From: Cytidiella melzeri
Lineage: Eukaryota; Basidiomycota; Agaricomycetes; Polyporales; Irpicaceae
Length of the DNA: 64,000 nt
NCBI GenBank assembly: GCA_022592445.1
Contig: JABYQR010000044.1
Coordinates: 1-64,000, forward strand
Reading direction: 5' to 3'
Made by a program: the position numbers and the translations under genes
The notes under the pieces: model-generated
Told to the model about the DNA's origin: nothing
The model's database searches: none
Seen by the model: the letters and a program-made list of their open reading frames with translations, nothing else
In this document: positions 14,931-43,628 of the stretch, one piece after another
How the letters are laid out: every line of letters begins with the position of its first letter
How positions within the stretch are numbered: position 1 is the first letter of the stretch

Positions 14931-17306
14931 ATGCGTGCCCGCTTCAAGGTCTTGCCCCCTGGTATCCGGCACACCGTTCTCTCTCATCTCTCGCCGTCGC
15001 TCCGAAATTCTCCCTGCAAGTCCTTCTTATGGTCTACTAGATTGCACTCGACTCTTCAGAACAATGCGCGAAGACCAAGTTATATACGGAGCTACTTGTG
15101 GGCCTTGCCAGTAGCAGGTGGTCTAGTCCTGTACCTCTTGCCGAAACCGCAGTCAATCTTTCCAGCACTTCTCGCTTCACCGACAATAATACCTTGTAAT
15201 GAAGAACGCACACCACTTCCAGAGCTTACCATCAATTCTCCTTACGAGCCCAAACGCTCTATCATCTCACTTCTCTCAACACTGCTGCGGGACAAGATAT
15301 GGGAACCAATCCTGACTGCTCGGAGGTTCATACATCTCTTGTATCTCTTTCTTCCGGTGCTCTTGTCGGCGCCGATGCTGCTCGTAGGGGAGCCTTCGCG
15401 CTCTCTCGGTGGCGACAGATGGGGTGCGGTTTGGTGGTACGGCTTTCTGACTACGCAGATGCAGCGAGCAGGTCCTACGTTTGTGAAGGTGCGTAAGCCT
15501 TGGTCCCATAACGACTTATGCTGAGTCATTTTCAGCTTGCACAATGGGCAGCTTCTCGCGCAGACTTGTTTCCAGCTTTGCTATGCGAACGTCTCGGAGC
15601 GCTACATTCTCGAGGAAAGGCACACTCATTCAGACACACGAGGAGAGTCATCGAACGCGTCTTTGAGAAACCTTTTCGTGAGGTATTTGAGGAGTTTGAC
15701 GAGACCCCCATCGGAACAGGAGCAATCGCTCAGGTTTGTTCGCTTTACATCAATCATGAACTTGTGTTGATGAAAGACTTGCAGGTGTATAGAGCTACTC
15801 TAAAACATGACTTAATACCCCCGTCACACTTGCCAAACCGCCAGGTCCGCACATCTGGTATACCTCTCCGACCAGCGATTTTGCAGCCGCCGCCTGTTGC
15901 GCCCACGAATGCCGTTGCCATCAAAATTTTGCACCCAAAGGTCGACAAGATAATCCGTCGTGATCTGCGTATCATGTCCTTCTTTGCGCATGCACTCACA
16001 TGGATTCCTGGTGTACAGTGGCTTTCGTTGCCTGAGGAGGTGGATGTGTTTGGGAAGATGATGCACGAGCAGCTAGACTTGCGGAACGAGGCGAGAAATT
16101 TAGAAGAGTTTGAGAAGAACTTTTCTCCTCGCAGGCTGCCTGTGATGTTCCCACTTCCGCTGCAGAATTTCAGCACGAAGGACGTCCTGATCGAGGAGTA
16201 TCAGAACGCGCTTTCTCTGGAAGACTTTATCCGGAATGGCGCTGGTCCGTATAGCGATGTTCTCGCAGAAGTGGGGCTCGATGCATTCCTAGTGAGTCGA
16301 GTGCTTTAATCACTCTCTTGCTCTGACGATTTCCAATAGAACATGCTCCTACTTGACAACTTTGTACATTCCGACCTGCACCCAGGAAACGTCATGATCA
16401 AATTCTCGAAACCGCTTTCCACCAGCGTTCTCCTCAAGAACGCATGGGACTCCTTGTTCCATTCGAAGATAAAGCCAAATTTCTCGGACGAAGCTGCCGC
16501 CCCTCCGCATACTGTAGACCCTACCACCGACTCGATCGTAGACGAGCTACGTGCATTGAAACGAAATCCACCCGCATGGCGCGACGCCCTAGACAAGATA
16601 CACACAGAAGGCTACCTCCCAGAAATAGTCTTCATCGATGCAGGATTGGTCACAACCCTCGACACCAGCAACCGCACCAATTTCCTCGACCTCTTTCGTG
16701 CCATCGCCGAATTCGACGGGTATCGCGCCGGTCAGCTCATGGTCTCCCGCTGCCGCACGCCTGAGCTCGCTGTCGACCCCGAGACGTTCGCGTTGAAGAT
16801 GCAGCACGTCGTGTTGAACGTCAAACGCAAGACGTTCTCACTTGGCCAGATCAAGATTTCCGACATCTTGCATTCTGTACTCATGGCCGTGCGAGAGCAT
16901 CATGTCAAGATGGAGGCTGACTTTGTGAACACCGTCATTTCGGTCTTGCTGTTGGAAGGTATAGGGAGGCAGTTGGACCCTGGCTTGGACCTGTTCAAGA
17001 GCGCGTTGCCGATTTTGAGGCAGCTAGGTAGGCAAATGGGTACTCAGGAGAATATGAAGCAGATGGAGCGGAGGAATATCGGGGCGTTCTTGAAGGTTTG
17101 TGATATCACGTCTGCACCATCGCTCGTGTTTCTTTGCGCTGAATATTGAACCACTGTAGGTATGGGTGTATATGGAGGCGCGTGAGCTGGCTTCCTCTGC
17201 TCTTGTAGATGCGGACGAGCTTGTTCGTTATGACTGGTGCGTATGGCTTACTGCATACAGGAGATACCGACTAATCGAGATTTGAAGGTTGACCCCTGCA
17301 ATTTGA
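14931..17306 (+). CDS. ADCK2-type UbiB/ABC1 atypical kinase (mitochondrial)
   Basis: Exons 14931-15488, 15536-15733, 15785-16291, 16340-17095, 17160-17236 and 17288-17306 give 704 aa. The N-terminus is basic and Ser/Arg-rich, as expected for a mitochondrial presequence, and is followed by hydrophobic stretches (about residues 60-80 and 130-150). Kinase-like signatures: KLAQWAASR (KxGQ-motif position, residues 186-189), PIGTGAIAQVYRA (Ala-rich nucleotide loop), AVAIKILHP (Lys), HSDLHPGN (catalytic loop, 431-438) and VFIDAGLV (metal-binding, near 520). UbiB proteins control coenzyme Q biosynthesis or distribution. The Gly of KxGQ is replaced by Ala. A broken copy of exons 3-5 lies at 40840-41744 in the duplicated block. 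Confidence 0.92.
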
Positions 17307-17601
17307 CATACTCGTACCTTCTCCGATAAACAATACCTGTGTCTTCCATTAGTATATCCTTCACAATCAGCAGCTGTATAGCATAGACATCACATTGTTT
17401 GATACTTCACTCGGTTTTCAAAAAGAGTTGCAGAATTCCAGTCAAAAAGGGTGGAGAATTGTGACAGGCACAAGAATTACGAGTCATAGTATTAGGGTAT
17501 TGATACAAGATGGTATAAATGAGTCATAACGGCATGGGTGTACAAACTGCTAGTCACAAGAAAGTTCATGTCGTCTCGAGCTGCAGCGCTGACATCAACT
17601 C
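17307..17601. other. Convergent 3' region
   Basis: This lies between ADCK2 (+) and the PY-protein copy A (-). From about 17520 on it is recognisably similar, in inverted orientation, to 32700-32850 downstream of copy B, so it marks the edge of the duplicated block. Confidence 0.5.
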
Positions 17602-18223
17602 CTAGATGCTGTCCCCAGGCATCAGACCAGGAGAGGAAGATCTGTAAAATGATCAACAAGAGTTCAGATAGAAAAACCAGGGATTACTAACTTCAAGGTT
17701 GTGTACACCCATAAGCTAACACTTGCCACGAGGCAGAGCGTGAAGAGGATGGTGATTATCTGGCATGTCACTGGCTAAGTGCATTGTCAGGGTCAAACTG
17801 AATGTATGGGTTGAAGAGATTCACCTCTATGGCAGGTATGGTAGGCAGTCTAAGCCCTGGAAGATACAACTCTGTACCAGCGCCACTGCGGAAAAACAGT
17901 GATTGGCGATCTGCGTTGCCGGTCTCGCGCTCAACTCCTCCGTGCAGGTCGGGGGTGGTCCCAGGGTTGCCCGTGAGAGGTGGTGGATCTGGGCTGGGAT
18001 GCGCGAGCTGCATATCTTGGCGTTCAGGGACAATCTCGGGGACAATGCTGCCAGTGGAGGGTTGTGTCGGTGTCGACATGTAGGAGATCTCATGGTCAAA
18101 CAGAATTGTAGAATTGGGTGTGGGTGTATAGGGCGGAGGGGGTAATAATGGTTGGTAAAGCCCTGACTCTAGGGTGTTCAGGTTGAAGGGGGTATTTTTT
18201 GTAGTCGGCATTCTGGTCGGCAT
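17602..18223 (-). CDS. Small PY-motif tail-anchored protein, copy A
   Basis: Exons 18223-17825, 17759-17692 and 17641-17602 give 168 aa (start 18223; a second ATG at 18211). The N-terminal part is Pro/Thr-rich with LLPPPPYTPTP (PPxY). A conserved middle block reads RQSLFF...GTELYLPGLRLPTIPAIE. Exon 2 encodes one hydrophobic helix (ITILFTLCLVASVSLWVY) and exon 3 a short tail SSSPGLMPGDSI. The layout suggests a tail-anchored membrane protein that could recruit a WW-domain ubiquitin ligase. Two paralogs exist in the window (32177-32738 and 40054-40612) with the same exon phases. No known family is recognised. The splice model is supported because all three copies keep the same intron positions. 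Confidence 0.65.
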
Positions 18224-18429
18224 TCTGGTGAGTGGCTGACATTGGATGGACACCAATGCAGCCAACCGGACCTATATACGAGCACACATAGGGGTGTCCT
18301 GTTTTGGACGATCCACTATTTGACGATCGGACAGCTTTCATAGTATGAGTAGGGATTTGCCATATTATGTACATGAGAGCGTACACAGTAGTATTGAAAC
18401 AAATGCAAAGATATGCCCATGATCAGCCA

Positions 18430-19955
18430 GTATGTTTGCTCATCCTTCATCAGCCCTTCCCGCTCATGCCCAGATACATCGTAATGGGGATCTGGTCTGC
18501 GCTGTCGCTTCGCGGGATCCACGTCGTCCCTCAGTTCTTGCGCGTCTTCGCCTCAGATCTCGAACACTGCTGCGTCGATTTGGGGCCGGGGCGCATCCGA
18601 CAAGGCGTAGCTGTATCATCATCGTCACATTGATACAATCCTTCTGCTTCAGGATGCCGTTCGAGTGCTCCATGCCATAGTCCTCGGTGTCCTATTGTCC
18701 TGAGCGAGCTCGTCAAGCATAGCTAGCGTGAATACACCTGTCGTCACTCAGAGTAAATTCAGAGAACACAGAGATAACTGTTGTTGGGAGTCTTTCGCCA
18801 GAGGTATGCGATGGTCATCAAATCCATGATGGACAGGAGGGAAAAAACCGTCAAGAGGCCAGCACTGTACCCTCCTGGATCTTGCGCCGTAATCTGCATA
18901 AAGACAAGTCAGTAGGTGAAAAACCTTTGACCGCCCGAGAGTTCACAGACTTTCAGAAAGTCGACTTGATAATGTCATCGACTACACGACGAAGAAAATG
19001 ACGACCATGAGGACCCGCATTATCAGGATCCGGCGCAACCATCTCGGCACTGCAAGTTAATGCTGCTCGCGGACCGCGAGTTGAAGAATTGTAGCTAGAT
19101 CTAATATGTCAGTAAAAAAAAAGCGGTACGACGTACGCGAAGACACTTGCCGTTCAAATAATACATTATCCAAAGAAGGAGACCGCTAAGGGTGGACACC
19201 AGCGGATTATGAACACAAGCAAGTCAAATGCTGAGGTGGAGTCCAGCTCCATCTCGACGATGCCAATAGCATATAGTACTGTGTAACGTCAATAGAGTGC
19301 ACTGCAATATGCTCAGATGAGTGTGCTCACCTCCGAAGACAAAGTGCGCGACAGCGAATAGCGGACCTCGAAGCATCGTTCTACCAAGCGACTCTCGCAT
19401 GACGCTGAGACCGAGTCAGACGACAAGAACCAAGAAGAAGGATCCCGCGTTACGGCCGGCGTCCATGGCAACTTGGTTGACATGAGCGACGTTGCTGACG
19501 AGATCCCAACTTTGCTTACCGACAATGAGAAACACGGTAGATGTCGTGCCTTTGCCATGTGCGTTGAATAAACAGTAGTACGTTAGTCGGTACCGTTACC
19601 AAACGCGTTGAATTGAGATGTGCAGATACTTTACCAAATTCGCTATCATTTCGACGATGAGGGAGCCCAAGAAAGTCGAGAGGTACAACTGTTCTCTGTG
19701 ATCAGAATGAAGCGACTGTCGCGCTAGAGTAACACTCACCTGAACCTGTAGAAGGCGTTGCATGTCGCGATAGCATTGCACACCCCAAAGAGCGCCAAGG
19801 ATAGTGTACACTGTGAACAAGGCGGCGGTACAGAACTACGAAGCATTGGCCTGACCTTGACCTTTGATAGCCGACAGCTGCGAGTTGTGCAGGGGACCTT
19901 TGTAAGGGGACAATTCCGCCGTAGCCTTGGATGCAACTCGGTGACGCTTGTAACC
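18430..19955 (-). pseudogene. Broken copy of the PTM1/GPR107-like gene
   Basis: The reverse strand matches 30440-32040 of the intact gene from exon 4 to the C-terminal tail. Examples are the exon-5 stretch around 19780-19840 (YTILGALWGVQCYRDMQ) and the end around 18430-18520 (DPAKRQRRPDPHYDVSG). The 5' part (exons 1-3) is missing, frames shift several times, and the stop region is altered. The copy ends abruptly near 19955, where fructosamine-kinase sequence begins. It precedes PY-protein copy A exactly as the intact gene precedes copy B. Confidence 0.85.
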
Positions 19956-19959
19956 AGTA

Positions 19960-20380
19960 CATGTTCACTTACTCACATCTCAGAGTCGTCCCGTCCCTCC
20001 TTGGCCCGCTTGACATACAACCAGTGTTGCTTCACGAAGATGTTCGGGTGTGGCTTCTCATGTCTTTCCATTTTGCTGAATTCTTGGCCTGTGCTTGTAG
20101 GGCTTTGAAACACTGGGACAAACACTGAAGCTGGTGACCTAATTATCTTCGACGTGTCATTTTGCTTGACGAGGCAGAGTCAGCTACTGTTCAAAGAGAC
20201 GTGACGTTGAGAACACTCACCTTATTGAGAGTATGCCATTGCCCGCATATTTGGCTTCAATGTCGTTCTTTATCACGTACGCGTACTGAAATACAAATTT
20301 GAGTTCCGCAGTGATTTGTATGAGCTGAATCAATAACGTTGCTCCGAAATCATGCAGGAAATTCGTCGGCAAAGATGGAG
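19960..20380 (+). pseudogene. Broken 3' part of fructosamine kinase gene
   Basis: This matches exons 2-5 of the intact kinase gene at 42490-43628 in the opposite orientation. The clearest piece is GPLDIQPVLLHEDV at about 19990-20045, where the HGDLW motif of the intact gene has become HEDVR. Intron sequences are retained, so it is not a retrocopy. Frames are interrupted and exon 1 is missing. Confidence 0.8.
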
Positions 20381-20384
20381 GCTT

Positions 20385-20730
20385 ATCTGGCTACAAATGG
20401 AAAAATCCTTCTGAATTGACCTGCAACGAGTTCGTCAGCGACCGCCGACGACCACCTCGTTTGTAGTCCTCATTGCCAGGTCTCACACCCTCGCCTTCAG
20501 GTTGTCCTGCTTTGGTCCCTGTAGCTTGCTCTGCTGTCTGTTTGGAAGTCGCTGTGCTGTACCTGCAACTGTCACACCTGCGCACCCCTCAAGATTTGCG
20601 CAGGTGTGACGGCCCATTTAGTTCTTGAGTCAAGAACTAAATAGGCCGTCGACAATGTGATTTCTGGTGTGCTGCTTTGTCTCCCCTTGCAAGTGGTTTC
20701 GCGTGCTAATACCAGTATCTCCGATTAGCA
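20385..20730 (+). repeat. Copy of the RPB2 upstream region
   Basis: This is similar, in inverse orientation, to 39571-39850 upstream of intact RPB2 and to 42034-42270. Shared blocks include the motif GTGTGCTSCTTTGTCTCCCC about 70 bp before the ATG and the GCGCAGGTGTGA block about 150 bp before it. In this copy the region is interrupted by a foldback palindrome. Confidence 0.75.
20571..20650. repeat. Two adjacent inverted repeats (foldback)
   Basis: A perfect 14-bp inverted repeat (GTCACACCTGCGCA at 20571-20584, complement at 20597-20610) abuts a near-perfect 43-bp palindrome at 20608-20650. The second has 20-bp-plus arms, one mismatch and a 1-nt centre at 20629. The other two copies of this region lack the insertion. 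Confidence 0.85.
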
Positions 20731-20943
20731 ATGGGCTTTGTTCAACGTAGTGCCGCGTACGCGTACGCCGATACAGGAAACGACTTTGAGGAAGAAAAAG
20801 ACGATGAGACCGAGGAGACTACAGAGAACAACTGCTGTGCTGTCATTCGCGGCTTCTTCGCGGAAAATGGTCTCGTGCGAAAACAATGCGACTCCTTTGA
20901 CGAAATCGTCTAGAACGTGATGTAGGAGCTTGTAGACGAAAGA
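20731..20943 (+). pseudogene. RPB2 5' fragment, inverted copy
   Basis: From the ATG at 20731 the frame follows the RPB2 N-terminus (AAYAYADTGNDFEEEKDD, then RGFFAENGLVRKQ) for about 60 codons. It then stops at TAG after DEIV. The sequence continues as RPB2-like DNA to ELVDE near 20943 and then switches to cullin sequence. It is a truncated, dead copy of the gene at 35419-39570. Confidence 0.88.
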
Positions 20944-21592
20944 TACATACGAGCAGCTCGATCGGTCCTACGCCGACACTGCACATAAGATCTTCCTCGG
21001 CGCGCCTCACAATGACGAAAGTCTGATTCGCTACCTCCTTCCTTCCTTTTACCGCTACTCTGCTAGGTCGCAGACAGTCAACAGGCTTATCAACTACGTG
21101 AACCGACATCACGTCAAACGGGCTTTCGACGAGGACAAGGGCTGGCTCAGGCTCGCGGACTTGTTCGACGCTGTCACAAAGTCCCTTCAAGAAGACGACA
21201 CGCGACAAGGCGGCGGCTTAAAGGAGCTGAAGAAGTGGGGGTACTATGACGGAATACCGCCGGGAATCCTCGCCCAGGCGTGCGCACAGGCAACGAGCTC
21301 GCTCGATAGAGTGGTCCTTCTCCCTTCCATGGCCCTACGACGCTTCCGGCATGAGGTGATTGTATCATAAAAGACAAGAAAGGTGGGAAGAAGAAACAAC
21401 CACCGGCGCAGAAAGGGAACAAGCCAGCTTTGCCGGGCGATCAACTAGTTTGGGCGGTGAGTGAGCTGCTAGAGTTGGAGGGGCATCCTAGGGACAAGAC
21501 AGCAGGGGAGTTGGCGGTGCTGCTCAGGACAGTAGGGGTCCATCCCAGCCACCCTTTCCGCAAAAAACTCGACTCCCCAGTTTCAGGGTGAA
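20944..21592 (+). pseudogene. Broken cullin-like gene, fused to RPB2 fragment
   Basis: This matches the intact cullin-like gene (34028-35062) from about its codon 115 to the C-terminus, in inverse orientation. An open piece at 21098-21370 reads RHHVKRAFDEDKGWLRLADL. There are frameshifts, in-frame stops (around 20990 and 21368) and a lost segment after EDDTR. Its head-to-tail fusion to the RPB2 5' fragment implies a deletion of about 4 kb relative to the intact RPB2-cullin pair. Confidence 0.85.
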
Positions 21593-21790
21593 TAAATTAC
21601 GGAGTTACGGACAGCGTCGAGATTTTGACGAGTGGAGTTTATTGCATACGAGGATTCTCTACATTACAACCGTTGTTGTCACAGATTACAGTAAGAGATG
21701 TCCGATACGTCCGAGACGCTTGAACGGTGTACAAAATAACCAGCTACAAATACAGCACGACGGTAGAATCAAAACAATCATAAATTATAT

Positions 21791-24700
21791 TCAGGTCGGA
21801 GGATAGCCAAGACCGTAATGCTCGTGCGGTGGGTTGAGGTGACGTTGCAGGGACATCAAGCTCGAATTCGCGGCAGCCTGCTGTTGCGGAAGTTGACCGG
21901 AAGGAGTTGGACCGTCTGCTTGACCACTAACAGCACCAACTTCCTGCATGAAATCGGACGTGAGTTGATTTTGGTCGAAAGTGAATAATCCCTGGGGAGG
22001 CACAAGCTGAGAGCCCATTGGCGAAAGTTGAAATGCTCCATAGTCCGGTGTGACATATCCTCCACCAGTACCAGGTCCGATCAACTGCGGCCACCATTCG
22101 TAGCCTGGTACGTATGACATGGCTGAAGAAGGGGGTGACTGTATGCCTTCGTCGGCAAACATGGCGTAAGGAGACGACAAGTTTTGAGGGGATGAGCTGG
22201 ACGGCTCGTTTGTCGCAATGTGCGGGACACTGTACTGATGTAGCAGTCCAGGGCTCCTATCTCCCCCGAGAACCTCCTGCAAACCTCGCTTCGGTCTTCC
22301 TTCCGAACTTCGGTTGTGGGCGGAGAGATCATCCATATCGACACAAGCTCCTCTGAGAAGATTCTTGGTACGGGTAGCCTCTGGCCACACGTCCTAAGGC
22401 AGGATGGAATCAGCCAGCCTCAGCTCATCGTGTTTGGAAGACGGGCATACCTCTATAACTTCCGCAGCGCGAATACTCTGCATCAGGCCAATAGTCGCTT
22501 GTGTATCTCTCGGGCGACGTGTCACTACGCATTTCACCGTCAATATGTCAGCATAGAATTGCAGCGAATTCAGCGATGCTCACGGGTAACGACATGCATG
22601 ATACTGTCAAATGAACATTAGACTACTTCGCAACCGAGTGTAAGGGGAACGCAACTCACCCAGAACTTTGCAAGTAGCTAGCAAGTAGCGGAGGAGCGCG
22701 CTTCAAACTGAAGATTTTATCGTAGGCATCAACTAGTGCAAGGTTCGCAGTCAGTACTCGAGTACCCACAATCTATCGTAGTGGTTGCGGACTCACTCAG
22801 CGAACTGATTCGCGTGGCAGCAGACTGGCACACATCTAGACACTGGCTGTGCATGAGGTTGTGATCTTTCTGCGTGCTCAATCGCTGTTGACTTTCAAAC
22901 ACACTTTAATCAATATCGTTTGGTCGACCAGCCAGACAAATGACGAAACTTACTCGCTCCAATTGGGCAAACTTCAAAGAATATAAATCAGCTCAGGATT
23001 CGCGGAGAAAAATCAGACTCTTACAATGCTCTGTGGAGCAGCAATATTGCCCCGTGATACTCAACATGCAAAATGAGTACATGCGGCGAAACTGGAGATT
23101 CGGTCACTCCTTCACGGTACGCCAGCTCCTCTGGCAAGTTGATCAACCATTGATGCAGTCGGTTCTCTAAATCGTTTCGCCACTTTTCCCGATATACCAC
23201 ATCATCATCATAGAGTTTGACTGGGTACAGCTTCGCCATGATCTCGCTCATAAGGATAGCTAACCGATATTCAGTCATGATTTCAGAATGCAATGGAAAG
23301 TAAAACGTACATAATTTGCACTGCATCTTGAAACAAACCATCACTCGAGCTGGCATGGGAGAAAACTCAGCTCCAAGTAGATTTCTCGGATATGGGCGCC
23401 ACATCGCTTCGTCGTCATTCTAAGCAGTGTCAACCATAGCTTCAAGTCAAAAATGTGATCACGTACAATATCGAAATCAGGCTCCGGGATGCTGAAGTCG
23501 CCTTTCTTGAACATGACTGGTCGACCTAAAGCACGTCAAGTATCGCATCAGTGACTACACTGTTCAGCTGCTCCGAGAAACTCACCAAGCCATACTGCTG
23601 ACATCCTAGAGATAGAGGCATGACAATTGTCAATGAATGCAGAGACGCAAAATTATATAGACAACGCACTTATCGGCGATACAACAAGACCACCAGATCT
23701 GCCTCCTGGTCTGCTTCTCGATAGCAGTGAACAGATCATGTCCACTCGCGTCCTTCCAGTTATCTGCATCACGGTTCATACCAAGGTCAATCGCCTGATC
23801 ACGCCTGCATGAATACAAGGTACGACGGGCTCAAAGATCTTCTCACCATTCGGGCTCCCATGCCAATGAACATCCATCCCTGAGAGAGAGACGCAACTCC
23901 AAGTTCCCTTAGGCCCAGAAGGACAAGTGCTTGACAGGTGGAGGGTCTACTGTCCGCATACAGGGTATCTGCGAAGCGACTTGAGCATATCATTGTTGCA
24001 CTGATTAGTCTCCGCTATTGAGACTCACTTATCAATCTCCGCGCGTCAACCGCGTACTTGTTTCCAGCTTCATGAGGTTTCATGCCCTCTGGGGGAGGGA
24101 GATAATGCGCAGCGAGCGCAAACATTGCCAACAGCAAAAGTTTGGTAACGGTCTGCAACGATTCACGTTTTCTGCCATCTTTCTCCGTTTTTCCTGAGTC
24201 AGGTGTTTCAAGAGTCCTATCAACGATGGTATCGATGAGTAAAGCAGTCGCACCGGACAAAACAAGTGATGGGCTCAGACAACAACTGTAATGCGAACCT
24301 TTCGTTATACATGGCTAAGAAGCTCGCCTTGTGGACGACGGGGTAAATATGATGGACGTAACTGAAGTACGCCATGATGAGTTGGTCCTGCGTCTGATAA
24401 TCAGGAAGCTGGATGTCATCGTTCACTTTATCGAACGACAGACAAAGGGAATCTGTCGTCATCTTCAAATCGTCAAACTTCCTGCACGCATTGTAAGATA
24501 GTTTGCGCTTTCCGCTATCTGAAAGAAGGGGTACTGCACCAGATACCGTTTTCCTGTTGCTGTGAATCATCTCTTCGGTCGCTCTTCGCCAGAAGGTGCA
24601 AACCGGCCGAACGCCCATGGTAACGGAACTAAGAATGTGTCAAGGAATCGTATGCCTCTCTAATAGAGACCTTCGCGTTTACCTCGTGGTTCTGGTCTAC

Positions 24701-32738: not shown

Positions 32739-33433
32739 CATGGTCTGATGTCTGGGGACAGCATCTAGGAGTTGACGTCAGCGCTGCAGCTCGGGACGAC
32801 AGGAACTTTCTTATGACTAGCAGTTTGTACACTCATGTCACTGTGACCTGTCTATACTATTCTGTATTGGTATTAGAGCTGTCATGGATGGCCTGACTAG
32901 CCCTTAATTTTTGCAATTTACCTCTTGTTTTTATCTGTAAAACTCCGGGCTGCAGCTCAGTTGCAACCTTCTCTGCATAAACTCCCTTTTTACGTCTATT
33001 AAGCGCCCGTATCACGTGGCTTAGACGCTCCACACGGTCACATTACTTGCTACTACGTCACACTGGCATGTGACTTAGCTTAAGTAAGACCACATGGCTA
33101 CAAGCACATGGCTCAGCCCATAGCTAGGGTTTGACGTCATAGATACTGTCCACATGGGCTCCTTATTGTTCTTTCCTTATTGTTCTCTTTATGGAAGGAT
33201 GTTCTCACAGGTGTGGGAATGGAATACAATAGTTGGTCTCCTTTTAGATAGATTCTCTCACGGGTAGAGTTCTTGGCAAGGTCTAGACAATAGCTATTGT
33301 TCTCCTTTAGGTAGTTCTTTTGTTCTTCGTTCACATGGCTTCTTGCAAAGCCTGCCCTCAACATGGTCTGTGCGCAGGTCCCTGAAGTCTATATATACTG
33401 CTGCATGTACGCTCCTAGCCCCCATCTCGACCT

Positions 33434-33520
33434 CTTGGTCTTTACTGGGCTAGGTAAGCAATCCCCTCTTGTACTACATAGCTGGTAGTCACAATACTAA
33501 CTTGGTCTTTACTGGGCTAG
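33434..33520. repeat. Direct repeat, 20 bp, 67-bp period
   Basis: CTTGGTCTTTACTGGGCTAG occurs at 33434-33453 and again at 33501-33520. ATAGCTGGT also recurs downstream of each copy, so two diverged units of about 65 bp stand in tandem. Confidence 0.8.
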
Positions 33521-33649
33521 CTTTCTGAATAAGTTTGATAGCTGGTGAACGCATTGTGCTTCACGCCTGCCACCACCTCCTTGTCGTCATCCACATCGTG
33601 TCCCTGTTTGTCACGTCGAGCCCTGTCTCCGTGTCAAGAGCTGACAGGT

Positions 33650-33733
33650 GTACACTGTTACTGTGACTCTGGTATATCTCAACATTAAAGCTGTTTGATG
33701 CTCAGATCTACCAGAGTCACAGTAACAGCGTAC
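33650..33733. repeat. Hairpin with 25-bp arms
   Basis: The arms 33650-33674 and 33709-33733 are complementary at 24 of 25 positions (core TGTTACTGTGACTCTGGTA) around a 34-nt loop. It lies in gene-free DNA and could be a small foldback element or a structured RNA. Confidence 0.8.
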
Positions 33734-34027
33734 ATGTAGTAGTAGTGGCCTGGAGTTTGAGGGAACTGTACATGTCATAATCCTTATATGTTCTTGTTAG
33801 ACTCCATACATGACCTATTCCCACCGCACATGTAGTAGGATGCCCACAGGGCCAGATGGCAAAGTTACAAAGCAAAACACTCTGCCACACAGCATATCCA
33901 CAGTTTCATTCCACTCTGAGAAGCAGGATTGAACAGGACTAGCATACACAACATACAGCTTAATAAGTGCATTCTTGGACAATTGCCCATTCAAAATACA
34001 TTCAATACCTGGTAATGTATACTAGTT

Positions 34028-35062
34028 TCACCTGGAAACCTGGGAGTCGAGCTTTTTGCGAAGAGCATGGCTGGCATGAACCCCTACTGTCCTTAGCAGC
34101 ACTGCCAACTCCCCTGCCGTCTTATCCCTCTCATCTGGATCATGCCTCTCCGTCTCTAGCAGCTCCTTCACCGCCCGAGCCAGCCGACCTTTCGGCAGAG
34201 CTGGCTTGTTCCCTTGCGCCGCTGGTGGTTTCTTCTTCTTCCCACCTTTCTTGTCTTTCGAGATAGCGAGCAACGGTACAATCACCTCAGTCCGGAAGCG
34301 TCGTAAGGCCAGGGAAGAGAGAGGGACCACTCTATCGAGCGAGCTCGCTGCCTCTGCGCACGCCTCCGCCTGAGCGAGAACCTCCGGCGGTGCTCCGTCG
34401 TGGTACCCCCACTTCTTCAACTCATTTATTTTCCGCTCCTTCAGCCGCCGCTGTATCATGTCCCGCGTGTCGTCTTCCTTGATAGACTTTACGACAGCGT
34501 CGAGCAAGTCCGCAAACCTGAGCCAGCCCTTGTCCTCGTCGACAGCCCGTTTAACGTAATGTCGGTTCACGTAGTTGAGAAGCCTGTTGACTGACTGCGA
34601 CCCGGCAGAGTAGCGATAGAAGCAAGGGAGGAGGTAGTAAATCAGACTCCCGTCATCGTGAGGCGCACCGAGGAAGATCTCATGTGCAGTGTCCGCGTAG
34701 TACCGATCGAGCTGCTCGTATAAATCTGTGCCGCTCGGTTTGACGTCCTTGTGCTCCCTATACGGCCCATCTACAACGCTCTTCGGAGGGGGAGCAGAGA
34801 GTATGTCGACTTGTGAGGTAAAGTAATTGTAGACGGCAGTGTGCACGCCCATGTGGTAGGAGACCTCGATCGCTGGCACCTTCAAGGGGTTGTTCGTAGG
34901 ACCACGAACGATGTGGTCCAGTGCCGGCTGGAGGTAGCCCCAGAGAGCAGGAAGAGATGCTGAAGGATTCGCGCTGCCAGTCGAGGGATTTGGAAGGGGC
35001 TTCAGAGCGTCTTCAGACTCGCCAGTCGACGGAGCAGCCTTCGGTGACTTGTCTCTCGACAT
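34028..35062 (-). CDS. Truncated, intronless cullin-like protein (N-terminal cullin repeats)
   Basis: A single 344-aa open frame. Residues about 40-215 resemble the first cullin repeats of CUL1: LWGYLQPALDHIVRG, VSYHMGVHTAVYNYFTSQ, GTDLYEQLDRYYADTAHEI, SQSVNRLLNYVNRHYVKRA and DEDKGWLRFADLLDAVVKSI. Known cullins are about 750 aa and scaffold RING ubiquitin ligases. Here the cullin-homology domain, RBX-binding region and neddylation Lys are absent. The C-terminus is Lys-rich (GGKKKKPP). It could bind an SKP1-type adaptor through the N-terminal repeat and compete with real cullins, or it may be a relic. The ATG is 356 bp downstream of the RPB2 stop, on the same strand. A dead copy lies at 20944-21592. 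Confidence 0.75.
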   Translation of the reverse strand: MSRDKSPKAAPSTGESEDALKPLPNPSTGSANPSASLPALWGYLQPALDHIVRGPTNNPLKVPAIEVSYHMGVHTAVYNYFTSQVDILSAPPPKSVVDGPYREHKDVKPSGTDLYEQLDRYYADTAHEIFLGAPHDDGSLIYYLLPCFYRYSAGSQSVNRLLNYVNRHYVKRAVDEDKGWLRFADLLDAVVKSIKEDDTRDMIQRRLKERKINELKKWGYHDGAPPEVLAQAEACAEAASSLDRVVPLSSLALRRFRTEVIVPLLAISKDKKGGKKKKPPAAQGNKPALPKGRLARAVKELLETERHDPDERDKTAGELAVLLRTVGVHASHALRKKLDSQVSR

Positions 35063-35418
35063 ATCGCGGAGAAGTACACAGCAACGGCAAGAATTGAACT
35101 CGCGCGAGCTACCAGGGTGAGTGTATGCTTCGACGTCCGTGAGCTCGAGGACACAGGTGGCCAGTAAGAAAGGTCGTGGTCAAAAGTCGCGACGAAGCCG
35201 TATTCGAAAGACTTTATAATGAGCGCGGACCAACCAGCACAAACAGGGGCTGTTTGTGGGCTACACCGTATTGCGCGGAGGGAAAATGCGAACATCAAGA
35301 TTGCACGCAAACGACGGTATGGTGCGAAGCTCGCACCAGCGTGATATACATTAGGCTAGTAGTAAATACATTGCAAGACTCGTTTATCGACAAAGTCCAG
35401 CTCCCCAGAATAGAAGCT
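35063..35418. other. RPB2 3' / cullin-like 5' interval
   Basis: This 356-bp gap lies between two minus-strand genes. It must hold the RPB2 3' UTR and the cullin-like promoter. Nothing else is visible. Confidence 0.4.
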
Positions 35419-38400
35419 CTAGTCTCTTATGCGCCCTGTTGATACGGTATAGAGACGGGCAGCGATGTTCATACTTTGCAGTTCCTAGGGAGGACAAGTC
35501 AGAATTGTAACATGCTACAGGAATGACAGTAACGTGCCTGGAAGAGCAGCTTGGCTGCGTAAGGAATGTATAGCTGTGAACACGCTGTCTTATTTTTGCA
35601 CGAACGGCATTCGAACGTTTGCTTTTTCTACAAGAAAAAATGAGCAAGCGTCCATTTGCGCGCAAGTTGTACAATACTCACCAAATTCGCGATCGCCGTC
35701 AAACCGCATCTACAACCATTTGTTAACGCAAAAAGACTTCAAGGGAACAAAGACCCACATATCGCAGACGTGCAGCCGGTAAGCATCACTGGCCTCGAAC
35801 AGACGCTCCTTCAAGAACGCAGCGACTCCATGCGAGATCATGCAATCACGCTCCATCTCTCCGAAACGAAGACCACCGTCACGACTACGACCTTCCACCG
35901 GCTGCCTCGTGAGAATCTGCACAGGGCCTCGTGCACGAGAGTGAATCTTGTCGTCCACCATATGCTTGAGACGCTGATAGTACGTCGGACCAAGATAAAC
36001 TTGAGCTTGTAGCTTACGACCAGTGTGACCGTGGTACATAACCTCCAAACCTCGAGATTGATATCCTTCTGCGCGCAGAATAGCAGAAACCGATTCCACA
36101 GTTAGGTCTGTAAACGGCGTCGCGTCCCCCTCATTTCCGACGAGAGTGGCGACCTTGGAGAGCAGACATTCGACCAAGTGGCCGATTGTCATACGTGAAG
36201 GGATAGCGTGGGGGTTGATGACGATATCAGGCGTGATTCCCTCCGCAGTGAACGGCATATCCTCTTGACGATACGTGATACCGATAGTACCCTTTTGACC
36301 GTGACGCGAAGCAAACTTGTCGCCAATTTGAGGTATACGCGTTGAGCGCACTCGAATCTTCACAAACTTTTGGCCTTCCGCATTCGTTGTGATGAGGACC
36401 TGGTCAATGATACCGTTTTCTGTGCTCTTGAGCGGAGTAGAGACATCCCGACGACTGTGTGTCCGCGTACGCTGACCCAACTCTTCGCTGTCAGGTGGTA
36501 TAGGTGCAGTCTTGCCGATGATGATGTCTTCGCCGTTGACACCAGTCCCAGGAGCGATGAGACCGTCATCCTCAAGCTTGTCGTAAGTCCCATGTTTCAT
36601 GCGGAGCGTGGTATCCCGAGTGGGCTTCTCGAACTCCTCTAGCTGCTGCACACCGCTCTTCTTCTCCAGATCCATGTAGCTCCGGTAGTACATGCTACGG
36701 AACAGACCACGATCAATAGAGCTCTGGTTCATGATGACTGAATCTTCCTGATTATAGCCGCTGTAGCAAAGAATGGCGACAATTGCGTTCTGACCGGCTG
36801 GAAGCTCCCGGAATTTAAGGTACTCCATCGAGCGAGTGGTCGCAAGAGGCTTCTGAGGATAGTAGAGAATGTTGGCCATGGTGTCCATGCGGACCTGGTA
36901 GTTCGTCAGGTAAATTCCCATTGCTTGCTTGCCCATGGCGGATTGGTAAGTGTTACGAGGTGACTATCGAAACGTAAATCGCTGTTACCCAGCTACCAGC
37001 GGCCAACGTACCTGGTTATGGTCGGGAAAAGGAATAATACTAGCACAAACACCGAGAATCATGCTTGGGTGGATCTCACAGTGCGTGAACGCGTGTACCG
37101 CAGAGGGCGCCTTGATTCTCGCACCAGGGTCGAACTCGCCGTTGTTCTTCAACACGGGCTCAAGACCTGCAGCCTGCGCCCTCGCACTCTCCAAGTCCTC
37201 GGGCGACATACAAATCATGACCGTCTCCTCCTCTTCAGCATCCAACATCTCGATGACTCCGTCGCGGATGAGGTCGGTGAATGGATAAGGATCACTCAGT
37301 TGCTTTTCGGGGTTACTGGGATCCATTACCGGATTCCCGGCGTCGTCGTATATCGGCATGCCGTGCGCAATTTTTGCCACATGCCTCTTCTTGATCATGA
37401 GCTGCTGATTCTCAACTACGAAAAGAGGTCGACAGACTCGTCCCGCATCCGTGTACAAACGAAGCTCGCGCTCACGAATGTCACGAACGACGGACACTTC
37501 AGGACTGATATCGTCCTTGCGACGCAGCTTCTTGATCGTCTTGACCAGGTTTGACGCATCACGGTGAACACCTATCCAAACGCCGTTGACGAAGACCTTG
37601 GTGCAAGGGGTCGCCGAATGCGCGTTTTCTTCTAACGACTCCAAGCCCCACTCCTCCAAAAATTCAATCACAGGTGCGGAGATAGAGCCAACGGAGATAC
37701 AAGACATGAGCGATAGGTTCTTGACAAGACCACATGCTTGACCTTCCGGAGTCTCGGCGGGGCACACCATTCCCCAATGCGTGTTGTGCAGCTGACGGGG
37801 CTTGGCGATCTTGCCTTCACGACCCAAGGGAGTGTTGCATCGTCGCAAGTGCGAGAGGGTCGACGCATACGTGTACCTGTTAAGCACCTGAGAGACTCCG
37901 GCTTTGGCTGACATTGACTTTTTCTGATCTCCCCAGTTACCCGTGGCGAGGGAGTACTTGAGACCGTTGGTGATGGTATTGTGCTTCACGGCCAAGGACA
38001 GATTGAACTCCTTATGTGTTTCAACACACTGGTATACAGAATGAGCTTGATATAGGTACAATTAACAATAGAAGAACATACCTTCTGCAGATAGCGGTAC
38101 ACATCCCTGGTCAATTTCCGAAACAGCATACGGAAGAGGTTCGCCAAGAGAGGGCCAGCCAAGTCCAATCGTTTCTTCCCGAAGTGATCACGGTCGTCTA
38201 GATCTCTCCTCTCGAGGGCAGCGAGCATAAGTCGGTGTATCATGTAGCCAAAGAAATACGCCTTTTTCGACTCTGCGCCTTCAGCCATCGAAATATGAGG
38301 CAACATCTCCTTTTGCAGAATCTCTTGTGCGTAGCGCAACCGACGTTCGCGGTTAAGGCCTGTGGTGGTTCCACGGTTGCCGATAAAGTCAAGAGCAACC

Positions 38401-39570
38401 TGAAGTCACTTCAAAAGCTGGCACGAGTTGGCATGAAGGAGAAACAGACCTCTCGGTCTTGTATGACGAAACCATCGTCAATACAAGGCTTAAGCATTTC
38501 AAGCATTTGGGCGTCTTGCATGTCGTAGCAAATGTGCTCCAAAATATCACGGTCAGAGATGACACCAAGAGCGCGAAAGACGACCCAGATCGGAATGTCG
38601 ACCTTGATGTACGGGATTGTCGCCTTCATGACATTTCCCAACTACACATGAGTGCGACCGCATCAATAGGTCGGTACACGATCATAGCGTCTCCTCCTCA
38701 CTTACCGAACGCTCCTGGTTTCTGTGGTAGAGCTTGACCTGGAACTGACTGATAGTTTTTCCTCCCTTCTCCACCGCGCTACGAATTTCCGCGAGGAAAT
38801 TGATAGGGGAAGGCTGGGCTTTGGCGAAAACGTAGACATGGTTGGTAGCCATGCGCTCCTGGGCGATGAGCACCTTTTCGGAGCCATTGATCACGAAGTA
38901 TCCTCCAGAGTCATAGGGACATTCATTCAAGTCATACAGTTCCTTGTCTTTTAGGTCTCGGAGGATGCAGAACGTCGATTGGAGCATAATTGGAACCTTC
39001 CCAAGCAGTCAATACACGTTAGCATACGAATGTTGTAAGGTCGCCACTAACCTTGCCGATCCAGACTTTCCTAGTATCCTCCGGCGACTCATGTTGTTCG
39101 TGCTCCCATATCATATCTCCAGTCATACTGTCCGGATCCTCCCTGCCTATCAACACCCTCTTCTTCATCTCGACATACAGTGGCGACGAATATGTCAGGT
39201 TCCTCAGCCTCGCTTCCTGCGGGAAAATGGGCACCACGGAGCCGTCTGCCTCCGTCACTGTCGGTCTTGACAGGTAGATTTGTCCGAACTTGATCTCATA
39301 CCGCCTCGTCACGTCTGATTCGTGCCCGGTATGCTGGTCCGCCTGGTCAAGGATGAGGTCGGCGTTTTCGTCCACAAGCTCCTGCATCGTGTTCTGGACG
39401 AACTCGTCAAAGGAGTCAAGTTGCTGTCGAACGAGACCTTTCTGCGCGAAGAAGCCGCTAATGACAGCCCAGCAGTCGTCCTCTGTGATTTCCTCAGGCT
39501 CATCGTCGTCTTCCTCTTCGAAGCCATACCCTGTATCGGCGTACGCGGGACTGGTTGGATCGAAGTCCAT
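35419..39570 (-). CDS. rpb2: RNA polymerase II second-largest subunit RPB2
   Basis: Exons 39570-39052, 38996-38706, 38641-38450, 38399-38082, 38028-37012, 36963-35759, 35709-35682, 35627-35538 and 35484-35419 give 1,241 aa, the normal fungal length. RPB2 forms the catalytic cleft of Pol II in the nucleus. Seen: the acidic N-terminus ([11 protein letters not shown]), the protrusion and lobe ([18 protein letters not shown]), the fork ([20 protein letters not shown]), the hybrid-binding region ([28 protein letters not shown]), the [12 protein letters not shown] block and the C-terminal zinc site (HVCDICG...CRSC). The last intron, 35537-35485, has a GC donor (CAG|GCACGT); without it the conserved [16 protein letters not shown] cannot be joined. 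Two dead 5' copies exist (20731-20943 and 41745-42033). Confidence 0.97.
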
Positions 39571-39990
39571 TGCTGATTGCACATACTGTAATGAGCACGC
39601 GGATTCACTTGTAAGGGGAGACAAAGCACCACACCAGAAGCCATTTTCTCGACGGCCTATGCAACCGTTCAGGATGCGCAGGTGTGATAGTTGCGGGTAC
39701 GGTACAGCGCCTTTGAGCAGGATTCTACCAGACCAAGCTACAGATTGTCAAGCAGGGTGACTTGGAGGCGAGGGCGCGATATTTGGCGACGACGACTGCG
39801 AACGAGGTGGTCGCCGCTCACGAACTCGTTTGTGAGTAGTATCACCACAATTACTAAGGAACATAAGTCTATCTATTCCAATTTTGGTACGATAAGCCTT
39901 ATTTCGCAAATACTAATATCCATTCAGTATAATACATGTGGAATAGGCGGATGGTCCAAAACAGTCATACCCCTATGTGTTTAGTATGTT
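39571..39990. repeat. RPB2 upstream region, reference copy
   Basis: This promoter-side region of RPB2 is shared with 42034-42365 (same orientation) and 20385-20730 (inverted). The short frames seen in it (for example MRRCDSCGYGTAPLS) recur in all copies only because the DNA is duplicated. They are not convincing genes. Confidence 0.7.
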
Positions 39991-40053
39991 TGCTATATAT
40001 ATATTCTGCGGCGGGCTGCTTTGGCACACCTCCTCTATCAGCTACCTACCAAG

Positions 40054-40612
40054 ATGTCGACTTCGTCCGACATGCCTGACAACCTAAGTACCCTAGAGTC
40101 AGGGCTTCACCAACCAGCATCACTACCCCCTCCACCCTATTCACAGAAAGACTTGGAACTGGCACATCCCAGCCATGCAGATCCAACACCTTCCATGGCT
40201 AACCTTCAAGTTGGGGCCCGGGTGACCCACAACTTGCACAGAGAAGTAGAGCGCGAAGCTGGTACCTCAAATGGCCAGGCCATTGTCCGCAATAGACAAG
40301 TCAGGACAGAGGTGTATTACCTTCCAAGACTACCTGCCATAACTGTGAGTTTCCCTGAATGGAACACACATCTAAATTGTCCCCTGACTGCACCTTCAGA
40401 CAGTGACATGCAATTTTATGATTATTGTTCTTACACTCTGCTTTGCAGCAAATGTTGGCCTCAAAATATACATGGCAGTCATGTTAGTACCACCTTCATC
40501 TCTTGTCCATCCTTTGAACTGCTACTGACCATCCCATAGCTCTGATCATCCTGGTATGATGCCACCATCTAGGACAGCCTCTAGAATTGGAGTGCATACT
40601 CAGTTACAGTAA
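40054..40612 (+). CDS. Small PY-motif tail-anchored protein, copy C
   Basis: Exons 40054-40344, 40400-40482 and 40540-40612 give 148 aa. It shows the same plan as copies A and B: N-terminal LESGLHQPASLPPPPYSQ with a PPxY motif, a middle block ending in YLPRLPAIT, one hydrophobic helix (FMIIVLTLCFAANVGLKIY) and a tail SDHPGMMPP. The exon-2 acceptor has moved upstream compared with the other copies, since the ancestral CAG is mutated here; a new AG at 40398-40399 keeps the frame. It stands divergent from RPB2. Retention of all splice phases despite strong divergence argues that it is functional. Confidence 0.6.
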
Positions 40613-40839
40613 TTCAAATGTAATATCATTGTTATCCTTACATGACTTGCAATTCTTGAAGATTCTGTTGCAGTTACATACTGTCTCAAAGATTTGGTAG
40701 TCAGATTCAAAACTGTCTTGAGCATGTCCAATTTCTATAGTCTGCAGCAGCTGTGATCATATGGGTATTTCTCATTCAAGAAGTTTTGTCTATATTGTGC
40801 CTACATGCCAATTCATAAAACAAGCTTGTCTGTTATTAC

Positions 40840-41744
40840 AAGAGCAGTCAAAGCCAGCTCACGTGCCTCCATATACACCCATACCTACAGTTTCCCAGTA
40901 TTCAGCACAATGAAGCACGAGCGATGGTGCAGACGTGACCACAAACCTTCAAAGACGCCCCAATTTTCCTCCTCTCCATCTGCTTCATATTGTCCTGGGT
41001 GTCCACCTGCCTACCCCAGCTGCCTCAAATTGGCAATGCACTCTTGGAGAAGGTTCAAGCCAGGATCCAGCTGCCTCCCTATAGCTCCCACAGAGTCGGC
41101 CCCTATCTTCACATGATGCTTCTGCACGGGGATCAACACAGAATGCAAGATGTCGGAAATCTTGGTCTGACCGAGTGAGAACGTCTTGCGTTTGACGTTC
41201 AGGAGTGCTGCATCTTCAACGCGAACGTCTCGGGGTCGACTGTGAGCTCGGGCGTGCGGCAGCGGGAGACGATGAGCTGACAGGCGCGATACCCTTCGAA
41301 TTCGGCGATGGTGCGGAAAAGGTCGAGGAGGTAGTGCAATTGCTGGTGTCGGGGGCTGTGACCAGCCCTGCATCAATGAAGACGATCCCTGGAAGGAACC
41401 CTTCCTTATGTATCTTGTCTAAGGCGTCACGTCATGCGGACGGGTTCCCATTGCAACGCACGCAGCTCTTCAACGATCGAGTCAGTGATAGGGTCCACAG
41501 TGTATGGCGGGATGGCAGCTTCGTCCGGGAACTTCAACAAGAAGGCACATGCGTTCTTAAGGGTAACGCTCGTGGACGGTGGTTTCGAAAATTGAATCAT
41601 GGACATATCCTAGGTGCAACAAGTCGGAGTGTGCAAAGTTGTCAGGTTCTATGAAATTGTCAGATTAAGAAGTGATTGAGGCACTCCAGTCACTAAAAAT
41701 GCGTCAAGCACCACTTCTGCGAAGACATCGTATATGAGTCGGTA
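40840..41744 (-). pseudogene. Broken ADCK2-type kinase copy
   Basis: The reverse strand matches the intact gene from the end of exon 3 (EVVLDAFL-like, near 41700) through exon 4 to exon 5 (near 40870). An open stretch near 41160 reads NVKRKTFSLGQTKISDILHSV. The catalytic loop region (near 41620) reads HSDLLHLGY instead of HSDLHPGN. There are frameshifts and deletions, and exons 1-2 and most of 3 are missing. Intron DNA is retained, so it arose by DNA duplication. Confidence 0.88.
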
Positions 41745-42033
41745 CTGACAAGTATATTCGTCCGGACTTGATTTCATGAAGCCTCGTCATGTCTGATTTA
41801 TGCCCGGTGCCTGGCCAAGAATGAGGTCGAGGTTTTCGTCCACAAGCTCCTGGTTCCGTGTTCTGAACGAACTCGTCAACGGAGTCCAGTTGCTGTCGAA
41901 AGAGACCTGTTTGCGCGAAGAAGCCGCTAATGACCGCCCAGCAGTCGTCCTCGGGCTCATCGTCGTCTTCCTCTTCGAAGTCGTACAATGTATCGGCGTA
42001 CGCGTACGCGGAACTAGTTGGATCGAAGTCCAT
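41745..42033 (-). pseudogene. Broken RPB2 5' fragment, direct copy
   Basis: The ATG at 42033 opens a frame like the RPB2 N-terminus ([34 protein letters not shown]). It loses the frame after VQNT, at about codon 64. The DNA match continues to the equivalent of IYLSRP (about codon 100) and then changes to the ADCK2 remnant at about 41744. Confidence 0.88.
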
Positions 42034-42365
42034 TGCTGATTGCACATACTGGTATGAGCACGCAAATTCACTTGTAAGGGGAGACAAAGGAGCACACCAG
42101 AAGCCACTTTGTCGACGACCTATGCAATTACTCTGAGGATGCGCAGGTGCGATAGTTGCAGGTGCGGGACAGCGCCTTTGAGCAACAAGCAGAATAAGTT
42201 ACAGGGACTAAGTAGAATAATATATGGAGGCTGGGACGCGATACCTGGCGGCGACAAAACGAGAGGGATCACAATATTGATTACTAGAAAAACATCTGAT
42301 AAGTACAGGTATTCCAATTGTGGTACAATAAGCCTTATCGTACAAATAACAAGTAATAGTTGCCC
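42034..42365. repeat. RPB2 upstream region, second direct copy
   Basis: This is similar to 39571-39990 in the same orientation, including the GATGCGCAGGTG block near 42140 and the TCCAATTNTGGTAC block near 42310. It ends about 125 bp before the stop of the kinase gene. Confidence 0.7.
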
Positions 42366-42489
42366 TCCACACCGTTCCCCTTGCCTCTACCCACAATCTA
42401 TCAAACGTACTTTCGCTAGCGTACGGCAACATCAGTACGATGCGGTCTACAGCACGGCAGATCTCGAGCCCTTCCTACTCATCCACCAT

Positions 42490-43628
42490 TCATTCCGGGA
42501 CTGCTTTCAACAACTTGTCCATCTTCGCCGACGAAGTTCCTGCGTATGAACTCTGCTGCAGCATCAATCTGACGTTCAGGGCGACGTGGACGTAAACTCT
42601 TACCCCGAATAGTATTGTATGATTCAGATAATGATACAGCTCATACAACTCACCGCGGAGGTCGTATTGATTTTCCGGGTCGCTCTTTGGCAAGTGCTGG
42701 TGGTACGTGGTAAAGAACGACTTGGGAAATCCACCAAATATGCGGGCAATAGCAAGGCTATAGAGTAAGGTGAGTGTTCTTCGACGTCACGTCTCTTTGA
42801 GCAGTACTGACTCTGCCTCGTTGTGTCCAAAGTAAGATGACGCGTCGAAGACGATTGGGTCACCAGTCTCGGTGTCTGTCCCAGTGTTTCCGCTCTAGGA
42901 GAACAGAATAAGGTGTCAACAAGCTGGAAAGATATGAGAAGCCGCACCCAAAGATCTCCGTGAAGCAACACTGGTTGTATGTCAAGCGGGCCAAGGAGGG
43001 ACGAGATGACTCTGAGATGTGAGTGTGTTCAAGCACTGCTTTTGCTTCGTTCGCGATCCACTCACCTCTTCCGAATTAGCTTTCCCTTCGCGCATAGCTC
43101 GCTGTATGCTCCATCTGCCGCCAGTTTCGTCAACAGCCCGCCGATCATAGCATCGTAACACTGCTCCCAAGTTTCGTGCCACCCATTCTCCTGTCTCGTC
43201 TTTCCGCAATACGTAGGAACCGCGAAGCCAAATCCCTGTGTGCTTTTGTACTGGTGCATCTCCGTCGCCAACCTCTTCGCTAGTTTCTTTGCGGACGCAT
43301 CAGTCAGAGGGCCTAGGGACTTGTACTCTGATACAAAGTAAGGCTTCCCCACGTCCGACTGGTGTTCGGCCACTTCTTCGTCAATGATCCCGCATTCTAT
43401 CAGCCGAGGAGCAAGCCCTGGAGCTGCCTTGTGCATTGCTCTGAGTGTCTCGGCTTCTCCAATAAACTGCTCCTTCTCGTACGCCAATCCTATCTTGGTG
43501 AAGTACCCCTTTCCGCTTGAAGAGCGGACGTGCGGTTCGGTGGTATGAAAGCTGACGGTTGCTTCTCCGTCGTTGCGTACGATCGCTCTTGTAAGCACTG
43601 GGTGGGCATGCATGCTGGTGTGCTGCAT
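42490..43628 (-). CDS. Fructosamine/ketosamine-3-kinase family protein
   Basis: Exons 43628-43066, 43011-42948, 42894-42812, 42757-42604 and 42555-42490 give 309 aa, the size of human FN3K. The family phosphorylates sugar-derived lysine adducts, so that they fall off glycated proteins, in the cytosol. Seen: the N-lobe (GKGYFTKIGLAYEKEQFIGEA), YFVSEYKSLG, the catalytic loop LLHGDLW (HGD at 205-207) then SGNTG, the DPIVFDASSYFGHNEAD metal/ATP segment, IARIFGGFPKSF and a YHYLNH C-terminal helix. A GTGAGT inside exon 4 is not used, because the family sequence runs through it. A broken copy of exons 2-5 lies at 19960-20380. Confidence 0.92.

Follow-up and report, generated by a model that had tools for sequence, protein, structure and literature searches.

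Bases 1-64000 of a 200,927-base contig (C379) from the genome assembly of Cytidiella melzeri (49.7 Mb in 731 contigs) were analysed, and this stretch, which contains no N, is called the window. Between 14.9 and 43.6 kb it carries a duplicated neighbourhood in which self-BLAST of the window identified inverted and direct copies of one gene set. The set consists of a cullin-like gene, RPB2, FN3K, PTM1, ADCK2 (which we take to be YPL109) and a small gene designated PY. Apart from PY, each gene is present as one intact copy, and these copies are spread over four places: ADCK2 in the left arm (copy A), PTM1 in copy B, the cullin-like gene and RPB2 together in copy C, and FN3K beside a second RPB2 fragment. 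A first-pass annotation of the same DNA had proposed that five genes each survive once in a different copy; the single survival was confirmed, with two of the genes sharing copy C.

Layout of the two arms

Inverted matches connect a left arm (16250-21592) with a right arm (30447-43041). Between the two facing arms lies a single-copy spacer of about 8 kb (21593-29545), for which self-BLAST gave no self-matches and no second copy inside the window (Table 1). Read outward from the spacer, the left arm contains the cullin-like pseudogene, the RPB2 5' fragment, the FN3K and PTM1 pseudogenes, PY-A and ADCK2. The right arm contains PTM1, PY-B, a solo long terminal repeat (LTR), the cullin-like gene, RPB2, PY-C, the ADCK2 pseudogene, the second RPB2 5' fragment and FN3K. 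PY-C was 61-62% identical to PY-A and PY-B in the window self-comparison. The off-diagonal matches expected by the first-pass annotation were present, and the repeat map and orientations agree with its reading of one inverted and at least one direct duplication. In the interval that separates PY-B from the cullin-like gene, an 86-bp palindrome (33649-33734, 84% arm match) lies close to the right end of the solo LTR.

With the same cut-off, self-comparison of five other stretches of 14.9-30 kb, taken from this contig or genome and in two cases from inside the window, gave 2, 0, 1, 0 and 1 self-matches of 85-325 bp. Whole-genome DNA searches with nearly all of both arms (15.0-21.7, 29.5-32.9, 34.0-39.3, 39.0-42.5 and 42.4-44.0 kb) returned, besides the copies in the window, a single further piece on contig C719 and nothing else. 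This piece (C719:16987-17889) holds an RPB2 5' fragment and an open PY gene of 106 amino acids, placed head-to-head as in copy C and alignable across the junction. The PY copy on C719 adjoins a gene that appears SCO1-like by eye.

Table 1. Positions of genes, pseudogenes, repeats and self-matches in the window.
Feature	Position	Strand	Description
ADCK2/ABC1-type kinase, intact, left arm A	14931-17285	+	5 exons, 714 amino acids, single terminal stop (spliced model)
PY-A, small gene, open	17603-18211	-	PPPPY motif, one hydrophobic stretch (spliced translation); homologous to PY-B, PY-C and the C719 copy
PTM1 pseudogene	18300-19943	-	5'-truncated, 8 frameshifting gaps, 4 in-frame stops, introns kept
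FN3K pseudogene	19952-20400	+	5'-truncated, 5 frameshifting gaps, 1 in-frame stop
RPB2 exon-1 fragment and upstream region, copy A	20425-20941	+	1 frameshifting gap
Cullin-like pseudogene	20941-21592	+	5'-truncated, 3 frameshifting gaps, 1 in-frame stop; sharp joint with RPB2 fragment
Spacer between facing arms	21593-29545		unduplicated; gene predictions
PTM1 (lung seven-transmembrane family), intact	29546-32001	+	12 exons, 622 amino acids; splicing exactly that of NCBI protein P0241
PY-B, open	32177-32740	+	no PPxY motif; conversion tract at 32561-32713, identical to PY-A
Solo LTR	32880-33636		TG...CA ends, 5-bp target duplication AGAGC; at least 39 other matches at 96-98%
Cullin-like gene, intact	34028-35062	-	single exon, one frame of 344 amino acids
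RPB2, intact	35419-39570	-	9 exons, 1241 amino acids, one terminal stop (spliced model)
RPB2/PY-C intergenic region	39571-39912		common to the C719 copy; partly to A and the second RPB2 fragment
PY-C, open	40054-40615	+	homologous to the other PY copies
ADCK2 pseudogene	40813-41734	-	5'-truncated, 6 frameshifting gaps, in-frame stops
Second RPB2 exon-1 fragment and upstream region	41738-42348	-	direct repeat of 39260-39912; 3 frameshifting gaps
FN3K (fructosamine/ketosamine kinase), intact	42490-43628	-	5 exons; contains NCBI protein P0121 letter for letter
Inverted match, ADCK2	16250-17233 / 41734-40813		78% (self-BLAST)
Inverted match, PTM1 and PY	17503-19943 / 32867-30447		80% (self-BLAST)
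Inverted match, FN3K	19952-20335 / 43041-42629		75% (self-BLAST)
Inverted match, RPB2 5'	20425-20941 / 39830-39366		70% (self-BLAST)
Inverted match, cullin-like	20941-21592 / 34727-34027		80% (self-BLAST)
Direct match within right arm, RPB2 5'	39260-39912 / 41738-42348		76% (self-BLAST)

Intact genes and their dead copies

RPB2 is intact in one place, as the earlier account had it, and its other copies in the window are exon-1 fragments. Residues 20-1190 of an earlier model of 1196 amino acids align with PDB RPB2 chain 3h0g_B, and the PDB chains aligned with RPB2 are presumably those of yeasts and animals. Further second-subunit matches on contigs C141 and C645, weaker than RPB2, are probably the Pol I and III paralogues. 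ABC1 Pfam matches were obtained on two exons of the intact ADCK2, and a whole-genome search with its fourth exon found just the intact and the broken copy. The best matches of FN3K and PTM1 were NCBI proteins of Cytidiella melzeri (FN3K query 100% over 98%, initial PTM1 query 97% over 100%). The cullin-like gene is about as long as its relatives, with 496 homologues above threshold, and is 55-76% identical to the best 119 others among them; its Pfam match is weak (E 5.7e-4, under the Pfam curated cut-off), which qualifies the earlier naming as a cullin. In PTM1, intron 31649-31703 has AT-AC ends (ATAAGT...TAC), fixed by the exact splice match to P0241, and intron 31272-31324 begins with GC.

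The reading frame is broken in all six dead copies, by 1-8 frameshifting gaps each. Introns were retained: intron positions of PTM1 (392), FN3K (166) and ADCK2 (105) can be aligned in the dead copies, and RPB2 upstream DNA was copied along with exon 1; the cullin-like gene is intronless. By their sequence the dead copies are unprocessed (duplicated) pseudogenes, with introns or flanks kept and frames broken, and the earlier claim of duplication at the DNA level holds where introns could be compared. Several lie against each other at sharp joints (cullin-like/RPB2 at 20941, FN3K/PTM1 at 19943-19952, ADCK2/RPB2 at 41734-41738), with little common sequence on inspection by eye. In copy A, the region upstream of RPB2 contains a 43-bp local palindrome (20608-20650) as an insertion.

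Differences between intact and dead copies were counted at codon positions 1+2 versus 3. The ratio was 0.78 for PTM1, 0.86 for the cullin-like gene, 1.14 for FN3K, 0.69 and 0.80 for the two RPB2 fragments and 0.43 for ADCK2. Because the ratios of five of the six pairs lie at 0.69-1.14, most dead copies were probably useless from birth, and signs that both copies had been functional before loss were not found in these five pairs. ADCK2 alone hints at such function and may have passed through a phase with two selected, working copies; its ratio differs from the others pooled (Fisher p 0.0009), and not significantly from each RPB2 pair alone (p 0.15 and 0.13). Given the truncation of the copies that lost out, ADCK2 is the one gene for which a genuine choice between two functional copies is suggested. 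The complementary decay described in the first-pass annotation is therefore matched by its outcome of one intact copy per gene and, except for ADCK2, hardly by its course; truncation, together with conversion between the arms, accounts for the loss of redundancy better than a slow complementary decay would.

Sequence exchange between the arms

PY is the sole gene of the block with extra open copies, three in the window and a fourth on C719, so that the loss of redundant copies claimed earlier applies to the five other genes and not to PY. The PPxY motif is present in PY-A, PY-C and the C719 copy and absent from the still-open PY-B. Between PY-A and PY-B, 107/294 sites differ (36%) in the first 400 alignment columns and 21/382 in the next 400, where a 153-bp identical run spans an exon together with portions of the introns on either side; no run of this length arose in 2000 permutations. 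Over the same 3' columns, PY-A and PY-C differ at 145/360 sites.

Low-difference tracts were also found in PTM1 (30852-31255, 27/400 differences, 0/2000 permutations) and between RPB2 of copy C and the second fragment (16/200, 0/2000 permutations), where exon 1 has 17/194 differences and the upstream region 79/323. A milder tract was present in ADCK2 (permutation p 0.006). The permutation is blind to uneven selective constraint, so tracts in genes with a single working copy are weaker evidence than the PY tract. Taken together, the sequences argue strongly for gene conversion between the facing arms, which had no part in the earlier account; it is demonstrated at this level for PY-A/PY-B and likely for PTM1. 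Because the arms have exchanged sequence, as in the 153-bp run despite the divergence of the PY 5' parts, identity between them does not date the duplication.

A division of the copies into two age classes (cullin-like and PTM1 younger; FN3K, ADCK2 and RPB2 older) was judged unsafe, as conversion tracts lower the PTM1 and PY distances; with no significant tract in the cullin-like gene, an age difference among the duplicates may nevertheless exist. The view of PY-C as an older paralogue, taken from overall identity, was weakened, as the 5' halves of the three window copies are about equally distant (B/C 75/211, A/C 76/251, against the A/B value above); a four-sequence tree of the PY 5' part still joins A with B, against C and C719 (bootstrap 76).

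Age, origin and meaning of the duplication

Protein trees were built with 38 (cullin-like), 48 (PTM1) and 43 (FN3K) relatives among the matches listed. In all three, the dead and intact copies cluster together, apart from Trametopsis and Irpex (support 0.988 for cullin-like, 0.999 for PTM1 and a weak 0.708 for FN3K), and the dead branch is longer than the intact one (about 4x, 15x and 10x, respectively). At sites where the intact and dead copies differ and the three nearest relatives agree, the intact copy matched them in 25/32 (cullin-like), 66/74 (PTM1) and 24/30 (FN3K) cases, and the dead copy in 3/32, 6/74 and 2/30. As the dead copies group with the intact ones, the duplication, or else the most recent conversion, probably postdates the divergence from Trametopsis and Irpex. 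The duplication appears to be specific to the Cytidiella melzeri lineage, local and fairly recent.

Linkage in relatives was judged from same-contig calls, in which contigs were equated by equal size and locus tags were used where given; six further cases mixing assemblies, none with a matching contig, were left out of the counts. FN3K and PTM1 were on one contig in 44/46 species counted, with locus tags two or three apart in Hermanssonia, Steccherinum, Ganoderma adspersum, Jaapia and Piloderma (tags of the last two are JGI numbers, which may not follow position) and about 600 apart in Marasmius oreades. The cullin-like gene shared a contig with FN3K or PTM1 in just 12/34 species, 11 of these 12 on contigs of at least 2.6 Mb; its tag is 763 from FN3K in Taiwanofungus. 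The ancestral order assumed in the first-pass annotation is thus probably not old. In Irpex lacteus the cullin-like gene and PTM1 are on one 476-kb contig, so the two may have come closer before the duplication.

Local duplication, truncation of the redundancy and arm-to-arm conversion are, in our judgement, the likely explanation of the locus as a whole. An inverted duplication would have put copies of ADCK2-PY-PTM1 and FN3K-RPB2-cullin on both sides of the 8-kb unduplicated segment. The copies around the spacer read L-a-b'-M-a'-b-R, which would be the layout of an inversion with staggered breaks, and the inverted duplicates do flank an unduplicated segment; that such an inversion left this layout is a reasonable suggestion to which we give slightly less than even weight. 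At least one direct duplication on the right produced the second RPB2 fragment, as the 39260/41738 repeat shows. Redundancy would have been removed mainly by gene-truncating deletions at the observed sharp joints, one working copy being kept per gene, with the choice probably largely set by truncation. The facing arms exchanged sequence by gene conversion, to the extent given above for PY and PTM1. No new function need be assumed, extra open copies being confined to PY among the block genes. The gene orientations led to the rejection of a simple inversion whose breaks would fall exactly in RPB2/PY and FN3K/PTM1.

Several points weigh against this reading. The staggered-break model needs an extra duplication to place PY-C and the ADCK2 pseudogene between RPB2 and FN3K. 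A staggered-break inversion followed by a single direct duplication of PY-ADCK2-cullin-RPB2 would also yield the right arm, but C719 speaks against the step that makes the RPB2-PY joint new. If C719 is an outgroup, the junction it shares with copy C suits an ancestral RPB2-PY neighbourhood over a junction made by the duplication; both four-sequence trees, that of PY and that of the RPB2 upstream region ((C, second fragment) versus (A, C719), bootstrap 100), would then fit such a neighbourhood. The cullin-like gene has no significant conversion tract (permutation p 0.11-0.2), the FN3K grouping comes from 88 codons and a very long dead branch, and the gene order of relatives is derived from shared contigs and locus tags. 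Divergence is also unequal between segments (FN3K introns 45/166 versus PTM1 introns and flank 87/496, p 0.011), which could mean several events and not conversion alone.

A rival model, built on the single ancestral order of the first-pass annotation, has one unit, cullin-RPB2-FN3K-PTM1-PY-ADCK2, repeated three times in tandem on the right-hand side and present once, inverted, on the left, with reciprocal loss afterwards. The right-hand copies all point the same way and could represent three clipped units, and in the tree just given RPB2 of copy C pairs most closely with the second fragment; however, the linkage in relatives argues against the unit as an old neighbourhood, no trace of FN3K or PTM1 was found between RPB2 and PY in copy C, where C719 has the same junction, and in the PY 5' half B and C are no closer than A and C or A and B. 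We regard this derivation as rather unlikely. Copy A, as a patchwork of right-arm pieces with a local palindrome and joints of little common sequence, might also have come from template switching during replication, with several jumps in a single event, or from an FN3K-PTM1 block inserted between RPB2 and PY, and copy C and C719 suggest that RPB2-PY is the older neighbourhood; yet its joints are equally explicable as later deletions and its ADCK2 is complete rather than a fragment, which makes this origin improbable.

A more speculative and quite doubtful suggestion is that the RPB2 upstream region and the divergent PY gene form a repeatedly copied cassette and that the facing arms keep passing sequence between PY copies by conversion; a fast-changing PPxY membrane-protein family would thus arise on the promoter side of essential RPB2, with the cargo genes being shed meanwhile; C and C719 share the RPB2-upstream/PY arrangement, and further RPB2 5' fragments lie beside both FN3K copies. 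Assembly error is very improbable: the genome is in 731 contigs and was judged from the assembly rather than from reads, but the copies differ by about 15-38%, carry gene-breaking lesions and are all on one contig, and unmerged haplotypes were rejected on this divergence and these lesions. Processed retrocopies have practically no likelihood, being refuted for PTM1, FN3K and ADCK2 by the retained introns and contradicted by the copied RPB2 upstream DNA.

Among the surrounding genes, one at 7642-13605 is presumably glycogenin-like, judged by eye. The predicted genes of the spacer resemble, by the same means and with no family match, what we take to be a Zn2Cys6-type regulator, REV7/HORMA and an SNX4-type protein. 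Ten single-exon pieces from neighbouring genes, those of the spacer included, had no Pfam match at E 0.001, and an Rfam scan of the window gave nothing. Two direct repeats of 325 bp (60463-60787 and 62203-62527, 100% identical) adjoin the frame 62621-63943, which is tyrosine recombinase-like by eye and with the flanking repeats is perhaps a young mobile element.

Reciprocal gene loss can follow duplication, as after polyploidy in yeast. Here too, redundancy has been reduced to a single working copy per gene, with the survivors in different copies; in contrast, the process is local, within 30 kb, and truncation marks the copies that lost out. The palindromes of mammalian sex chromosomes, in which inverted repeats facing each other undergo gene conversion, likewise have near-identity tracts inside otherwise diverged inverted arms, whereas the tracts here are short (about 150-400 bp) and each arm holds working and dead genes. 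The closest precedent found is that of inversions 2h and 2q of Drosophila mojavensis, where formerly single-copy DNA is inverted on both sides of a segment through staggered breaks, and at 2h one copy is intact (7.1 kb) and its counterpart was cut to 2.7 kb by several deletions (PMC3355041). The present locus differs in its spacer of just 8 kb, with dead copies of different genes at both ends, in its extra direct duplication and conversion between arms, and in that the inversion is read from the copy layout. As inverted duplications with one-sided deletion are described at those breakpoints, the earlier term 'rare snapshot' overstates the case.

No description of this locus was found in the literature searched, and a search for the gene names in PMC11766841, PMC10607315 and PMC8970355 gave nothing on this gene order. 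In Agrocybe chaxingu, one study places a glycosyltransferase-8 gene beside the MatA homeodomain genes and labels Rpb2 in its MatA figure (PMC11433599), and a Serpula paper reports the kinase YPL109 in the MAT A map of the other species compared (PMC3564976). A mating locus inside the window was rejected, as the homeodomain and MIP matches are on C115; there, Peptidase-M3 (MIP-type) matches and two opposed homeodomain matches (20796-25758) likely mark the A mating locus, on a contig other than that of RPB2. Since RPB2, glycosyltransferase-8 and YPL109 are reported near the A mating locus in other mushrooms, the duplication may bear on the rearrangement of that neighbourhood, with RPB2 and the homeodomain genes here on separate contigs.

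The locus is a clear and instructive example of a known process and not a new kind of event. It carries the warning that percent identity between arms does not date such an event. Within one 30-kb stretch it displays the undoing of a duplication that included part of the essential RPB2, with sharp truncations and with arms still exchanging sequence, and it is naturally suited to testing in which order duplication, deletion and conversion took place.

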